NCBI GenBank assembly: GCA_015039365.1
Contig: WION01000026.1
Coordinates: 62,001-126,000, forward strand
Direction of reading: 5' to 3'
Origin: Amanita rubescens
Taxonomy: Eukaryota > Basidiomycota > Agaricomycetes > Agaricales > Amanitaceae
Length of the DNA: 64,000 bases
Part shown: in pieces, positions 2,094-19,985 of the stretch
Layout: each line of letters opens with the position of its first letter
Numbering within the stretch: position 1 is the first letter of the stretch
Position numbers and translations under genes: made by a program
Notes under the pieces: model-generated
The model's database searches: none
What the model was told of the DNA's origin: nothing
What the model saw: only the letters and a program-made list of their open reading frames with translations

Positions 2094-3911
2094 CTAGCCC
2101 AAGATAATCATGTCTTCAGCTGATACGGGCGGTAAGGGGAAAAAGCAAGCAAACAGTAGGCAACCGCATCCACAATTTGGACCGTCCGAAATAAGTATAT
2201 GTATCGCGACCATTGGTGTCACGGCCATCCTTGCTAGATAGACGATTATTAGTACGATTAATCCGATGATTCCCAACCCCGATTTGAGAAGGCAGACCAT
2301 CGGTTCCCAGAGAAAGCGGACAACCGATTGGAGAAGGCGGACAACCAGTTGGATAAGGCGGACAACCAGTTGGAGAAGAAGGTGGACCACCAATCTTAGA
2401 TGTCGACAGAGTGTTTTTGGTAGTCGCACTAACGCCATCCGAGCAGGATGTCGGCGAAGTGTTTCTGGTAGTCGCACTAACGCCATCCGAGCAGGATGTA
2501 TGTGATACTGACCAGCACGTTTCTTGTCCTGAAGAAAGTCACGCAACGATTGGTGATAGACGGTAATGTGTGAATCCTTGATCTGCAAAAGCGAATGCAT
2601 CGTGCGCAGTTTGCGCTGCAAATTCTCCTCGCTCATTCGTAGACGCCGACGGATAAAATTGAAATCTGTACCCCCAAGAGAAATTACGAGCACAAATACG
2701 TCTCTCAAAAATCTGACGTCTAGCTGCTGAGAGAGTATCTGGATGTAGACTCGGTCTAATTGATCATATGGAGAGGATGTGTCGGCTGAACGGAGCTTTA
2801 AGATGATATCAAGCCGTTCCTTGGGATTGTAATCATCGTCGCCAATGAACTTGATGATAGTCGACGCATATATGAATTGACCTGATGCTCGGAGGGCCAG
2901 TTCGACGATATCTGTGTAAGACAGCAGAGGCGAGATTCCATGTTTTCGGAAAATGGAGAAAAGCTCGTCCTTTAGGTACTTCCGAATGTCATCACTCGGT
3001 CCAAACGCTTCGTCTAGCACAACAGTGCGCGTGATACTTTTCATGTCTCTCCTGTTGAACATTTCGTTGATATGAGCTTCTGGTCTACTGCAAATCAAGA
3101 AGCGTAGTGGGATGCTCGTGCGCACCAACGCTTTCGCGATGAGCACCAGTAAAAGCTCCTGGTCTCGTTCGGTGGCACATTCGTCTACGCCATCAATTAC
3201 GACGAGAAACTTCTTTGGTCGTAGCTTTGGATTGTCGCGACGGAGGTTGTCGAAAACTTTCACGACTAGGTAGTCAAATTGGGTGGTGATGGGTTTCGTG
3301 TAGAGTAAACGGTCTGTCTTTAGTGCGAGTTCGATGTATGGAAGCGTCTCGGGAATGGAGGTGCCCAACTGCCATGCCAGGGTTGTGAACAAGTGATTTG
3401 CAACGCCGCGATACGGGGTATTCCTCAGGAAGAAGAAGGACGCCGCCAGTAGGCTGTCCTTGTAATGTTCGGCGACGGTTTGAGCAATGGCAGACTTGCC
3501 AGCTCCGGCAGGACCATTCAACCACATGATATGTTGACGAGAGTTTGAATCAGCAATCCAGTCTGAAATTACTTCCAAGACCTTTTCGCGGGTTCTGGGA
3601 TGACACCTTGGCGGTGGATAACGTGCTGGTGAATCGTGCATTGCAGCATCAGCAATGTGCGATTTGAGATCACGATAGGCGGACGCTTGCCCGGGAGTAG
3701 GGAGTGAAGAAGTAAGATCCGTCTGCGTCTGAATATCACGATAGGCGGACGCTTGCCCGGGAGTACTAGTAGGGAGTGAATAAGCAGGATCCGTCTGCGT
3801 CTGAATATAAGGATAGGCGGTCGCTTGCCCGGGAGTACTAGAAGCAGGATCCGTCTGCGTCTGAATATCACGATAGGCGGACGCTGTAGGGAGTGAAGAA
3901 GCAGGATCCAT
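2094..3911 (-). CDS. NACHT-domain NTPase (fungal NLR-like, STAND)
   Basis: A single open frame of 605 residues. Residues 1-80 are imperfect repeats of a unit like SAYRDIQTQTDPASS. The NACHT core follows: Walker A GPAGAGKSAIAQ near residue 134, hh-hydrophobic Walker B KKFLVVIDGVDEC near residue 235, and a sensor-type LICSRPEAHI. These are the hallmarks of the NACHT NTPases that are numerous in Agaricomycetes and are generally linked to non-self recognition and regulated cell death. No WD40, ankyrin or TPR repeats follow; instead the C-terminus has a duplicated block, a leucine/valine-rich amphipathic repeat and a hydrophobic stretch (GLGIIGLIVLIIVYLA), suggesting membrane contact. An upstream exon is possible: a 71-residue frame overlaps the 5' end up to 4083. 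Confidence 0.85.
   Translation of the reverse strand: MDPASSLPTASAYRDIQTQTDPASSTPGQATAYPYIQTQTDPAYSLPTSTPGQASAYRDIQTQTDLTSSLPTPGQASAYRDLKSHIADAAMHDSPARYPPPRCHPRTREKVLEVISDWIADSNSRQHIMWLNGPAGAGKSAIAQTVAEHYKDSLLAASFFFLRNTPYRGVANHLFTTLAWQLGTSIPETLPYIELALKTDRLLYTKPITTQFDYLVVKVFDNLRRDNPKLRPKKFLVVIDGVDECATERDQELLLVLIAKALVRTSIPLRFLICSRPEAHINEMFNRRDMKSITRTVVLDEAFGPSDDIRKYLKDELFSIFRKHGISPLLSYTDIVELALRASGQFIYASTIIKFIGDDDYNPKERLDIILKLRSADTSSPYDQLDRVYIQILSQQLDVRFLRDVFVLVISLGGTDFNFIRRRLRMSEENLQRKLRTMHSLLQIKDSHITVYHQSLRDFLQDKKRAGQYHIHPARMALVRLPETLRRHPARMALVRLPKTLCRHLRLVVHLLLQLVVRLIQLVVRLLQSVVRFLWEPMVCLLKSGLGIIGLIVLIIVYLARMAVTPMVAIHILISDGPNCGCGCLLFACFFPLPPVSAEDMIILG
2284..2395. repeat. 21-base tandem repeat in the NACHT gene 3' part
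   Basis: Four to five imperfect copies of a unit like ggagaaggcggacaaccagtt. In the minus-strand frame they encode a leucine/valine/arginine heptad-like repeat (for example RLIQLVVRLLQSVVR), predicted to form an amphipathic helix just before the hydrophobic tail. Confidence 0.8.
2404..2500. repeat. 48-base tandem duplication in the NACHT gene
   Basis: Two nearly identical copies of a 48-base block containing tggtagtcgcactaacgcc. In frame it duplicates a 16-residue segment containing HPARMALVRLP. The high identity suggests a recent event. Confidence 0.85.
3682..3911. repeat. about 60-base tandem repeats at the NACHT gene 5' end
   Basis: Four imperfect units, each containing ggatccgtctgcgtctgaat and gataggcggacgcttgccc. 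They encode the N-terminal repeats of the NACHT protein. Units differ by small in-frame indels (for example tactagtag). Confidence 0.85.
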
Positions 3912-4767
3912 CTGCGTCTGAATATCTGAATAGTAGAGATGTCGTCCTCAAGTACTCAAATGCACGAGGACCAGGTGCGTGTTCCATGTGTTGAATAGGA
4001 ACGATAATCGCTTCGGTAATCGGGAGCTTCAAGCGACGCGTAATTGTAAGTATCGGGGCTGGATCTGTTTTCTCACCGGTCACATTCTCACATTCCGATT
4101 GTTCCCCACCGCTTGGTCAATGGTGCGTGAACAACAAAGCGGAGTGAATATCACAAGTGATCACAGCGATGCAGCAATCACTCAAATGACCGAGTCTCGT
4201 GGTTTGCCTGAGGTTGGGATATGTGAGTTGTACCTATCTTTGGGGGATGTGCTGACACAGTCATGTAGATCGTATTGATGCGTGTTACTGCCGCACACCA
4301 GGTCCCGCATCCTCGTATGGCCTCGAATGAGGCCGTACTTGCTGCCGCCCTCACCCCCCCCACATGACCTCAAACGAGAATATCACGTACACACCAAGAG
4401 AGAACCTGAGGCCGTTGTCACCATCACTGCCCGCTGGGAAGATGCCATGCGGTGCAACTCAATACTTAAAGCCTCGCAGCTTCAAGACCCGTCGGATATG
4501 AGGCCCGCGATGTGCTCGGAATCAAACCAACGGCATCCATCAGTCAATTTTCCACAGGGAACATTGGAAGGGCAAACGCGCAAATCCCACGTTGCTATCG
4601 ATGAATGAGGCTTCACAGGGTTCGGTCACGAGGCTTAAAGCTTAAAGCCCCGAGCTTCGTAGGCACTGCAAATAGCAGCTCTCCGTTGACCGCAAGTCAT
4701 GTCAGTCCTCCCATTATTATTGGTGCCCTTCCGGTCCTTGTCCTCGTCCCCGCCACATTCGCGCTAC

Positions 4768-15268: not shown

Positions 15269-18200
15269 TCATGTGGTGGATGGTGCTACCCACCCTAAGC
15301 ATGTGCTCAGGCATTGCATGAATAAATAAGTGAAACTCATACCATCAACATGGAGAACCTGTTGGAAGAGGAATTCCTTCTTCAAAGGCCACTCCAAATT
15401 TGCACTTTCAGCAGTAATCTCAGCCTTCAATTTCTGAAAGACCCCTTTTGTTTTGCTTTGATACAAAGCTTCCAGAACTGAAGAAACAAATGGCTTCTTA
15501 ATCCAAAACGATAGTTTAGCAATAGTGACAAATGCTTGAAAGTGTTAGTATAGGCAGGGATTTGATCAACATGGAATAATTTACAAATTAAGACTTGCAA
15601 GGCTGTATGCCTCTTCAAGTAACAATGTCAGTTTGTCATCAAAAAAGAAAGAGGAACCCATACAGCTTCTGAGAATGTGTCTGATTGTTCTCCAAACAAG
15701 GATAACAGCTCATGCTAACTATTAGGGGGAAAATTCAATATAGCACTAAACCTACACACTGTCATATAAATTAATATTTCCTTTGATATTTCCTCCACTG
15801 ACATCACTCACCTGCAATGCAGAAAAGGTAGAGAAATGAGCTCAAGGCATGAAATGGTTAGAGCTAAAATGATATCTTACGAGCTATGAAAGATAGTAAT
15901 ATCAGAAAAACAGAAGGAATAAAGCTGTGCCACATTCTTACTTTCTGGTAAACAAATGAAGGAAACCAGTTATAATGAGACTGGGTTCCCAGAAAACATG
16001 TGATGTCATGCTCACTTCCTATTGTGCATAGGCAAAGACATGATGAGGTTTGATCATCTTTCTAAAAAAATGCCTCACTTGCTGTTAGGTAGAGATGTAA
16101 TGAAACTGCTTTCAGACATTGTGCAAATCTACTTACATACTGCCCATCAGAGGTACAATGCAATCAGACTGCTTCCAGAAAATGTTGAGTATCACTCACT
16201 TCCTGTTGGTTCTGCAAGAGGATGTGGTGAGGTTACCTTTCACAAAAATGTAGAATCTGATTCACTCTCTGTTGGTCACAGGATAACACATAATAAGATT
16301 TTGCCAAAGATCCAAGAATGCACATGGTCACTGACTGACTGTTGGTCATGGAAAATTGTGACAAGACTGCCTTGTAGAAATGGTGGAATGCAACTCACTG
16401 CCTGTGGGTAATTGAAAGAATTTGATAAGGTTGCCTTTCAAACAATGCACAGTGGCATCCTCACTGACTGTTGGTCATAGAAAAAGATGACATGAGACTG
16501 CCTTCTGAAAAGGAATGGTACTGATTCACTCACAAGCTTTTGGTCACAGATAAAGGTGCTTATTTAAAAAAAAGTACATGCAATGTCACTTACTGTCTGT
16601 TTGTGATGAGAAATGATGTGATGAGACTTCTTAAGCAGGAACATGAGCATTGTCACCCACTGCCTGTTTATTTTGAAAATAAAAAGTGATGTGACTGCTT
16701 TCTGGAAATGTGCAATGATGGTAACCTACATACTGTTGGTCATAGAAAAAATTTGTAATTACACTGCCTTCATGAATATATACAATCTGGCTCACATGCT
16801 ATTGCCATAGGTGAGACTTCCTTTTCAATCAAATGTGTGATATGACTCACAGACTACCATGACAAAAGATGTGATGAAAATGCCCTGCAGAAAAATGTGC
16901 AATGTGACTTACTACCTGTTGGAAATGGGGGAGAAATGATAATAAGATTGATTTTCAAACAAAATTGTCATCTCTCACATGCTGTTGGTCACAAGAAAAA
17001 AATGTGAGGAGTGTCTTTCAGAAATATGTGCAATCCCCCCACCTGCTGTTGGTCATAGGAAAAGATGAGTGAGATTCCCTTTCAAACATGTGTAATGTCA
17101 CTCACATACTATTGTCATAAAAAAATGTGGCAAGAGTGCCTTTCAAAAATAGGCATTGTCACTCACAAACTGTTAGTTATAGGGAAATGATGATGAGACC
17201 ACATTTCAGAAACATGTGAAATATCACTAACTGTCTGATGTTGGGAGAATGTGAGAATGTCTTTCAAAAATGTGTAATGTGACACTCACAGACTGTTGAA
17301 CACAGGAACATGAGATTGCTTTCCATAAAGTGTGATTTCACTCACTCCCTTTAGCAATGAGAAAAAGAGTAATGAGACATTTGGAATGTCATGTACTACA
17401 ATGGAGTCACTCACTCCCTGTTAGTAGTTGTAGGGTAAATGAGACCACCTTTCATAAAACTGTGCAATGTCACCCACTGTCTGTTGGTGATAATATGCAA
17501 GGCTGACATTCAGAAACCAACACAATGTGACTTACTCGCTGTTAGTCATAGGAAAATATGTCACTAATCTCTCTTGATGAGACCTCAGATCCCACTTACT
17601 TTCTAGTATTTGCCATAAACAGCTATTCTCAAAGATGTGCAATTCAACAACCCACAATCTGTTGCACATAAGGTTGCAATGATTTTCCTAGCAGCTAAGT
17701 GATCAGAATTGCTTACTTCCTGTTGGTTATGCCATCAGGCCTGATATGGGAGAGTAGTGTTATGTACCTACTTTCTGGTGGTTATAGGATGAGATATGTA
17801 TGATGAGACCACCACTCAGCACAAATGACACCTACATCCTTTTGGTTGTGAGATAAAATTGGATCAGGGTTTGATGAACTAAACTTACTACCTGTTGTTC
17901 ATGGGGTAGGATGGGATTGACATTGGCAAGGTATCAGTATATAGTGTCACTTACATCCTGTTATTCATCAGATGACATCTGATGAGATCTTGAAAATAAA
18001 TAAAGTATGTCACCAACTTTCTGTTACCATTGGATCAAGTCTAATCAAGGACAAAACATGGGTACTGCTCACTTTCTTTATGTAGCAACAATGGTAAAGT
18101 GAGTGCTACATGGAAAGTGGTTTTGCTCACTCCCTGTTGATTATAGGATAGAAGGTGACAATACTGAAAGATTTCTGATAAAGCACATTAACTCACTTTC

Positions 18201-19985
18201 TGTTGACCACATATTGCAGCATGAGATGATCTGCTGGTAATATCACCCACCTTCTGTGAAATATGTAAGACTGCTGAGGATCAAAGTGAGCTACATATGT
18301 ATGACCTACAAACTATTGTTTCTAAGACAAGACATCAAATACATGCTAGTTTAGTATTGCTCACCCACTGTTATCTATGTCATCAGATCTTGCAACAGAC
18401 AATTTATCACAACCCACCTGTATTTCATCTAGCTCCTCAGACATCTAGAGTCCCATACATTTGACTTTCACTCAAAATATGTAATTAAAGTATTACTTAC
18501 TTGCTGTTGCACATTTTTACACACAAAGTTGATTATTTCATATGAAAATGCCTACTTGTCTATCCACCTATTCCCAATTCAGCTTTGCTGATATCAACAT
18601 GTTTGGCAAAATGTGCTTTACCCAGAAATGGGGGAATTTGGAAAACACTCCAAGAACAACATCATTCCATTTGAGCTTGTTAAGCAAGATATGTCTGAAC
18701 AAGGTCAATATTTCTGCATGGGATTTCAAATGTCACACTCACCGGATTGCAGATCTAACACAGAGATCAAGATTATTCATTTGTGTTGAGATGAACAGCT
18801 GTTGTATGCTGATATCATCAATTGCTTCAGCAGTGTGCTGAGTCAATTCAGGACAATTATTCTCTTCTAAATCCATGTCTATTGGACAACATCATGAGCA
18901 TTTTTTCAAGGACGGGATGTTCACTATTCTCACCTTCCAATCGCACAAAGGCCTTTGGAGGGTACTTAGTATCCAACACTTTAGGAAGATAAACTGTCTG
19001 AAAAATGCTTTCAGCCATTTGTCTGGCCTTTTCCCACTTATCTTCATCCTCTGTATCAGACAAATTGGCACTTTCATTGATTACTTGACCATCAAATTTG
19101 GTGAATACAACCACCAAAGGTACTGTAAAGGTGGTTAGTCCATTGTAAATTTTTTGTATTTGATTAATGGAAAGGAGGATCAACAGAGGTGATTTGCCTG
19201 ACCCAACCCAAGAGTCAAGACATTCCCAGAGAAACTTACCTTTGCCTGTCCCTTTACAGAAGAACTCAAGTTCTGCTGGTAAAATGGGACGAGGGCTGTC
19301 CATTGGTATACAGTACCTGCAAGAGACTTCATCAGCTAGTTATGTAAAGAACCAGTGAAGCATGATACCAAATTGCATGTAACTGATATTTCAACTCAAT
19401 TTCAGCAGATCTCTTCTCAATGAACTCCTGAACAATGTTTAATTCCTCATTTGAACCAGATTCAAATCCCCGAGAATCATGGAAGATGAAATTACTTCCT
19501 GGGTATGTAATTTGATGTTCAATATCATGTAGGCCTCTCTGTCATTGCTGCAATTAATGGGTATATACAAATGCTATCCTTTGACTGACCTCAATTGATG
19601 GCATCAAATGTATCACAGACTTTTGAAGCAGTTCACCTGCAGGAGGCTCAATAGTTGGAGAAGGCATAAAAACCAACCCAACTTACCATCCTTGTCATAT
19701 ATGATGGGCTCTGTCCCCTTTGCTACACCACAGACCTTTTCAAGGATGGTTGTCTTGCCTGCATTAGCCCTCCCAATCACGAGGATACGAAAATGTGGGC
19801 ATTCATATCGCTCTCTGAGAATTTTAACATGTGTCTCGTCTTTACCTGATATGTGCACATCAAATATTGGCAATGTCAAGATACATAATGGACCTACTAC
19901 TTGATGACTCAATAGTACTAGCTGTAGTTGCCATCACTGTTGTTTTGTGGTAGGTAATGGGAATCTGTGATTGTCTGTTGGGCAT
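15269..19985 (-). CDS. GTPase-domain (G domain, P-loop) protein with an extreme intron array
   Basis: Starts MPNRQSQIPITYHKTT at 19985. The G domain reads across several exons: HVKILRERYECPHFRILVIG, then the P-loop GRANAGKTT (about 19745-19775), IIYDKDG, a G3-type DSRGFES (about 19465), and the G4 motif FTKFD (about 19095). This is the AIG1/TRAFAC-like G-domain family common in Agaricomycetes. After the G domain come ISTQMNNLDLCVRSAI and FSKFPHFW (about 18640), then a 27-base exon (18418-18444) encoding MSEELDEIQ, embedded in 42 single-codon exons between 18503 and 15881. All junctions are phase 0. Normal exons resume with TIAKLSFWIKKPFVSSVLEALYQ and EFLFQQVLHVDG, ending at the stop 15269-15271. 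The exon joins between 15880 and 15560 are not resolved. Substrate and role are unknown. Confidence 0.75.
15881..18503 (-). other. array of 42 three-base exons separated by short introns
   Basis: On the minus strand every unit is AG, three bases, GT: intron ends are mostly (A)ACAG or TAG, and donors are mostly GTGAGT, GTAAGT or GTGGGT. Lowest base of each three-base exon: 18501, 18365, 18310, 18251, 18197, 18131, 18073, 18018, 17955, 17889, 17836, 17772, 17717, 17656, 17600, 17536, 17478, 17415, 17346, 17290, 17232, 17167, 17106, 17043, 16979, 16913, 16851, 16796, 16730, 16661, 16594, 16534, 16465, 16399, 16336, 16266, 16200, 16137, 16079, 16016, 15942, 15881. The only longer exon inside is 18418-18444. 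By my count the introns between neighbouring exons run from 50 to 71 bases. None of the 42 codons is a stop. The introns resemble each other along their length (a GACATTGCACA... and TCTCATC... core). At 18018 and 16336 a second placement of the exon is possible, also three bases long. Confidence 0.85.

Follow-up and report, generated by a model that had tools for sequence, protein, structure and literature searches.

Can a protein be assembled from exons that each carry a single codon? The question is raised by a GTPase gene in a 64,000-nucleotide stretch of the Amanita rubescens genome (the window, whose own numbering is used here), in which the pattern AG-NNN-GT recurs 42 times on the minus strand, from 18503 down to 15881. 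Reading the letters alone, a preliminary description proposed that each of these triplets is a separately spliced codon, and our comparison with other members of the gene family suggests that this is very likely correct: the triplets would be single-codon exons, which the spliceosome strings together codon after codon in the mRNA of a GTPase from Amanita. Most of the paralogous arrays begin with about 15 such codons that are conserved and continue with a hypervariable stretch.

An array of candidate single-codon exons

The count of 42 triplets was reproduced exactly, as were the intron lengths, the 27-nucleotide exon that follows the first codon (Q, at 18503) and the lack of stops. After Q and the 27-nucleotide exon, 41 triplets follow one another without interruption, from W (18367) to L (15883); the 40 introns separating them measure 50-71 nucleotides and none of the triplets is a stop codon. 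A caller that scores chains of splice sites joined 39 of the window triplets at 237 bits, whereas 300 dinucleotide shuffles of the array gave at most one linked triplet and a best score of 7.6 bits, and we reject a chance origin. With the same caller, no chain longer than one was found elsewhere in the window on either strand, or on the plus strand of the array stretch.

Upstream of the array, the joined conventional exons form a single open frame (KDETHVKILRERY...GRANAGKTT...FTKFD...FPHFW) with a GTPase (G) domain, recognisable by GRANAGKTT and FTKFD. In our exon check, which covers 19843 and downstream, the FPHFW exon ends at 18622 in phase 0 with 849 coding nucleotides up to that point, in agreement with the proposed GTPase assignment and phase. 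The inventory of small exons first given, correct for the 42 triplets and the 27-nucleotide exon, had overlooked a 12-nucleotide exon, VDRQ, whose position is occupied by VDRE or VDRV in paralogs among the 11 loci with compared flanks, by VDRA in protein P0002 and by VGRD in protein P0034. The gene is organised as follows:

19843-19687, 19636-19590, 19538-19369, 19316-19240, 19122-18934, 18878-18743 and 18694-18622, minus strand: seven conventional G-domain exons in one open frame
18567-18556, minus strand: 12-nucleotide exon VDRQ (GTGGATAGACAA) with AG/GT flanks, introns of 54 and 52 nucleotides on either side and counterparts in paralogs
18503-18501, minus strand: candidate single-codon exon Q, replaced in paralogs by E or V
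18444-18418, minus strand: 27-nucleotide exon MSEELDEIQ, 30 nucleotides in paralogs (e.g. MANEKLSEAQ) and MANKQLSEAQ in P0034
18367-17600, minus strand: 14 candidate single-codon exons, conserved part, WFKKGKKDVDKEIK (WFEQGKKETDREIK in most paralogs), with 33-35 of the 42 codon nucleotides shared with four paralogs
17540-15881, minus strand: 27 candidate single-codon exons, RTGGSTFYQHVSHYATLSASREYQEKL, at the site of the paralogs' hypervariable part; here an old array with drifted introns
15714-15664, minus strand: predicted next exon, HELLSLFGEQSDTFSEA, aligning with PELFSVFGEHSTFFSAT of protein P0006; counterpart HELFSMF at paralogous locus L013
15612-15343, minus strand: predicted C-terminal exons RHTALQVLI (15612-15585) and SFVTIAKLSFWIKKPF...HVD (from 15534), aligning with TACQVLAAMNIIAKLSF of P0006; 3' end uncertain

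Just past the array, TTGCAG/GTGAGT at 15812/15811 places an acceptor in contact with a donor, a zero-length exon as in recursive splicing. It is followed by AG-TGT-GT at 15758-15756, before the HELLSLFGE exon, and both features are also present in the paralogous copy L009; this element may be a remnant, or else the array's 43rd unit (Cys).

Conservation and probable coding character of the triplets

If the triplets are exons, they should be conserved independently of the sequence around them. In register, the first 14 window codons are 79-83% identical to those of four paralogs, against a fraction of 0.37-0.39 when mispaired, whereas the intron bodies of the same genes are hardly more alike in register (0.50-0.52) than off register (0.45-0.46). 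At the level of the family, this conservation of triplets and not of introns supports the separate splicing of each codon. The same residues are found side by side in proteins encoded without introns. Counterparts of the codons are contiguous in P0034 (FPHFW-VGRD-E-MANKQLSEAQ-WFEHGKKDTDKQIVYDGE) and in P0002 (FPHLW-VDRAVTNEQLSETK-WFEKGKKESDREIEYDGG), and the corresponding array translations of loci L017 (WFEQGKKETDREIKYDGR) and L018 (WFEKGKKETDREIKYDR) are comparable to these segments. Homologues lacking the joined residues had been named in advance as the outcome that would speak against codon-by-codon splicing; P0034 and P0002 contain them. P0034 matches the predicted L017 protein across its residues 288-345, a stretch of 58 residues, with E = 2.2e-15, and the score of the window's 42 codons against P0034, as against P0002, was attained by none of 2000 shuffles.

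Stops are also rare where the codons themselves vary. Pooled over 15 arrays (with the near-copies L009, L010, L011, L014, L015 and L019 set aside), the variable parts contain nine stops among 507 codons, against 36.5 expected when first bases are permuted within arrays and a minimum of 23 in 5000 permutations. In L012 our first caller was caught on an intron-internal AG-GCA-GT, and the stop that it gave in L011, L013 and L015 is absent with the later caller. The composition of the triplets is also unusual. Their third base is A or T in 487 of these 507 codons and G in only six (see for instance L013 and L020), compared with G in 58 of the 287 codons of the window gene's conventional exons (p = 3e-21); the window's own 41 triplets have three such codons (p = 0.053). 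Pairing with U1 spans the last three bases of an exon, so that a three-nucleotide exon is the entire exonic half of its donor site. We conjecture that weak U1 pairing on such an exon may leave the preceding acceptor free.

A family of genes with arrays

The feature is family-wide and larger than first described. A DNA search of the species' own genome, in which 40 of 146 candidates were scored, so that the count is a lower bound, gave at least 125 matches grouped into at least 36 places besides the window. Arrays were present in 20 of the 20 paralogous regions examined, a strict caller giving them 24-85 exons and our first caller 25-86. These regions are a subset of the 36 listed places, and some of them are copies of others or of the window gene: L010 is truncated and matches the window letter for letter over 2,207 bases, L009 is a 94% copy, and L011, L013 and L015 form one group of near-copies, L019 and L020 another. 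Of 30 further loci examined around C-terminal exons, which a relative's protein had served to locate, 25 contained chains of 5-18. The best protein match of the window gene is P0001, the deposited A. rubescens model F5887DRAFT_1075333, which terminates 17 residues past FPHFW, an end that can be read as lying within intron sequence.

At E <= 0.01, Pfam scans of P0001, P0006, P0021 and P0100 returned only weak, generic GTPase models, and no match to a NACHT domain, to ankyrin repeats or to the IRG family; P0021 had no match at E <= 0.1 among Protein Data Bank (PDB) sequences. The predicted structure of P0021 is confident in the G domain and in the C-terminal helices and has a predicted local distance difference test score (pLDDT) below 50 at residues 317-359. 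On this model, the hypervariable codons would encode a loop, flexible and probably disordered, that links the G domain to the C-terminal helical domain. The best PDB fold matches of the model are immunity-related GTPases (Irga6, Irgb10 and GM4951).

Several further observations were made along the way. In the deposited model of P0077 (A. rubescens, 407 residues), FPHYW runs nearly straight into the C-terminal helices; the paralog may have no array, or the model may be mis-joined. At G000:C8:77449-80137, junction matches occur at a spacing of 56 (77449/77505 and 78402/78458/78514), from which a second array type with a 53-nucleotide intron seems to exist. Within the window and outside the gene, a tandem repeat of about 60-72 bases occupies 3669-3925.

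Hypervariable codons beside near-identical introns

Past the conserved codons, the strings vary among genes (RRRGGGG, EDDRRYRRFEEDRRE, QQQRLRRREE and others). In the young arrays L013, L016, L020 and L021, the introns carry 0.02-0.05 bit per site and the codon positions 1.0-1.8 bits. Introns are more varied in L012, L024 and L028; in L012, 48 of 62 intron sites reach the variability of the least variable codon position, an effect that we attribute in part to the caller catching the wrong AG there. Among 372 units with 62-nucleotide introns from 14 arrays, the window being left out, 192 letter-identical copies of the intron adjoin 19 different codons encoding 13 amino acids, and the mean pairwise difference per site is 0.591 for codons and 0.032 for introns. 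Exact intron-NNN-intron junctions number 797 genome-wide, against none in a reversed control. That unrelated codons should lie between letter-identical introns has no ready explanation.

The same split is seen between loci. Pairs such as L012/L021, L014/L016 and L017/L018 have flanks that are 97-99% identical and codon strings that cannot be aligned, and the transcript-like proteins P0006 and P0009 are identical in 300 of 320 columns on one side and in 87 of 92 on the other, compared with 12 of 50 in the middle segment. L014 and L020 have a run of 30 codons in common. L011 and L013 are one whole unit apart, with no codon change in 83 aligned units, and what separates the arrays of L019 and L020 is a pair of neighbouring codons (ATC/CGA and GGA/CGA) and four intron bases. 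Within the family, the window gene counts as old and quiet. The preliminary description had set its array apart from a simple satellite, which we also reject as an account of the array. This contrast is only partly right: the exons are of fixed length beside introns of varying length, but the introns themselves look like drifted copies of a single intron, which paralogous arrays still preserve letter for letter. The 5' flank of the window gene is 99.3% identical to that of L009, while the two genes diverge by about 4-6% in the 3' flank and in the array introns; this fits patchy conversion, and dating arrays by their flanks is therefore unsafe.

Some arrays (L013, L020 and L021, on the downstream side) show an association of intron variants with codons that other arrays lack, and the longest repeated codon word lies above permutation (p <= 0.05) in three of 12 arrays, L018, L021 and L012.

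Discussion

As a whole, the data are probably best explained by a GTPase gene family whose array, conserved at first and hypervariable thereafter, is spliced codon by codon and diversifies a loop of the protein. The spliceosome would join the single-codon exons one by one into the GTPase mRNA. Because each unit would consist of one codon and one intron in phase 0, units could be gained, lost, exchanged or skipped with the frame intact, and the array could thus be a frame-proof device for altering, codon by codon, a flexible loop situated between the G domain and the C-terminal helical domain. Recombination among the repeats would homogenise the introns while selection would maintain the variety of the codons. 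The least certain part of this proposal is that these GTPases may serve to recognise nonself or to defend the cell, a role already suggested for NACHT receptors of fungi. On a bolder reading, which we consider less likely than not, the homogenised introns would be recombination handles, and perhaps splicing switches, between the single-codon exons. A large family resembling immunity GTPases would thereby alter a recognition loop residue by residue with no risk to the frame, and would have arrived at this solution independently of the NLRs of truffles.

A number of results weigh against this explanation. For the C-terminal half of the window gene's protein, no relative turned up at E <= 1 among 362 candidates, and the window's array does not score above shuffles against P0007, P0021 or P0006 (106, 1244 and 579 of 2000 shuffles, respectively). 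That P0034, P0002, P0006 and P0009 derive from RNA is suggested by their short Joint Genome Institute contigs (1.4-1.9 kb for the proteins with contiguous counterparts) and by their lack of introns. Five of the 15 arrays (L012, L022, L025, L027 and L028) contain one to three stops each, so that dead or mis-called copies may be among them. When the window gene is compared with L009, codons (2 of 117 sites differing) do not change significantly more slowly than introns (94 of 2203; Fisher p = 0.23). The fold match of P0021 to immunity GTPases is weak (template modelling score, TM-score, 0.33-0.42; root-mean-square deviation 6-7; 10-13% identity) and says nothing certain on function. As for the process of diversification, plain tandem duplication of units as the sole process was rejected: it predicts equal neighbouring codons, and their excess is real but mild (86 against 62.7 expected in 12 arrays, p about 0.0005). 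Nor is exchange between loci directly visible, 89 of 91 pairs sharing no codon blocks beyond permutation; the two others are the related L014/L020 and L012/L017, which exceeds it by one codon with a single five-codon word. Given the mild neighbour excess and the absence of general block exchange, we therefore favour recombination among repeats that keeps the introns alike, together with selection that keeps the codons diverse; codon-targeted mutation and introner spread are less likely alternatives.

The same exons could serve a different purpose if codons were skipped or included at will, a combinatorial splicing cassette by which one gene yields many loops, as reported for the NACHT-ANK genes of truffles. 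Any skip would preserve the frame, all exons being three nucleotides long and in phase 0. However, P0034 and P0002 hold counterparts of the conserved first 14 codons in one unbroken string, which argues for constitutive inclusion there at least, and we hold the cassette to be a real possibility that falls somewhat short of an even chance. It seems unlikely that the arrays arose by a burst of a 62-nucleotide introner-like element into an older, ordinary exon. While the 192 letter-identical introns and the 797 exact junctions, with none in the reversed control, speak for such a burst, the element would have had to enter at each successive third base, always in phase 0 and as many as 86 times running. 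Moreover, several loci with nearly identical flanks carry unrelated codon strings and not one old exon, a statistical link ties codons to introns in some arrays as if the two moved together, and a contiguous version of the array was not found in the species' own genome, a negative weakened by the shortness of the query.

That codons differ overall 18 times more than introns per site could also reflect a special process which, after tandem duplication of the units, mutates the codon and spares the intron; the side-by-side codon differences of L019 and L020, one of which changes all three bases, point the same way. Yet short gene conversions among units whose introns are identical would give the same picture, the 83 aligned units of L011 and L013 are free of codon differences, and we know of no enzyme for codon-targeted hypermutation, which we regard as quite improbable. 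Finally, the array might lie in one large intron or in a decayed pseudogene, with a minisatellite imitating splice sites. Its tandem-repeat character, and the deposited P0001 with its end in apparent intron sequence, are in keeping with this, but we reject a pseudogene or a single intron and give the idea hardly any credence, on the grounds that (i) triplets are conserved beside drifting introns, (ii) they have contiguous counterparts in proteins and (iii) stops are strongly depleted.

Codon-by-codon splicing of dozens of consecutive one-codon exons would be an extreme test of exon recognition by the spliceosome. It would also mean that a hypervariable protein segment escapes standard annotation, as in P0001, which stops before the segment, and it makes testable the notion that introns are recombination handles diversifying a protein without frame errors.

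Comparison with known systems

The closest parallel is the NACHT-ANK family of the truffle Tuber melanosporum, in which reviews describe tens of codon-sized, 3-bp microexons that are alternatively spliced (Iotti et al. 2012, as related in PMC4986451, PMC3689799 and PMC10197012). The claim in the preliminary description that no described gene has such an array was in this respect too strong. Both are expanded families of an ectomycorrhizal fungus with tens of three-nucleotide exons (here 42 in the window and 24-86 in the paralogous regions), and the diversification of nonself receptors proposed for the truffle resembles what we suggest for Amanita. The truffle genes, which we know by description only, are NLR-type and belong to an ascomycete, whereas ours are a basidiomycete G-domain family lacking NACHT and ankyrin matches; in the open-access literature searched, no account was found of such arrays in basidiomycetes or in GTPases. 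Fungal introner-like elements, described as near-identical spliceosomal introns in many copies (PMC4457414), are similar in the multiplicity of their copies; unlike them, the Amanita introns stand in gap-free tandem arrays, at three-nucleotide spacing and in one gene family. Ultra-small exons, constitutive or regulated, have been reported in isolation, of one nucleotide in Arabidopsis (PMC4674806) and Fusarium (PMC12940212) and of 3 bp in Drosophila homothorax (PMC7392893); here they would come in arrays of dozens.

The family may resemble immunity-related GTPases in having a G domain followed by C-terminal helices, as predicted for P0021, whose best, if weak, structural matches they are; the low TM-scores, the low identity and the generic Pfam models set it apart. 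Schistosome micro-exon genes and aphid bicycle genes are microexon-rich effector families that encode secreted or variable proteins from many tiny exons; their exons are of mixed lengths, unlike the uniform single codons of Amanita. The kind of gene structure is already known, and what is added here is the phylum, the protein family, the size of the arrays and the identity of introns set against the variety of codons. With the truffle precedent, the Amanita arrays would mean that two fungal phyla and two nucleoside triphosphatase families have reached codon-sized exons at a site of high variability.

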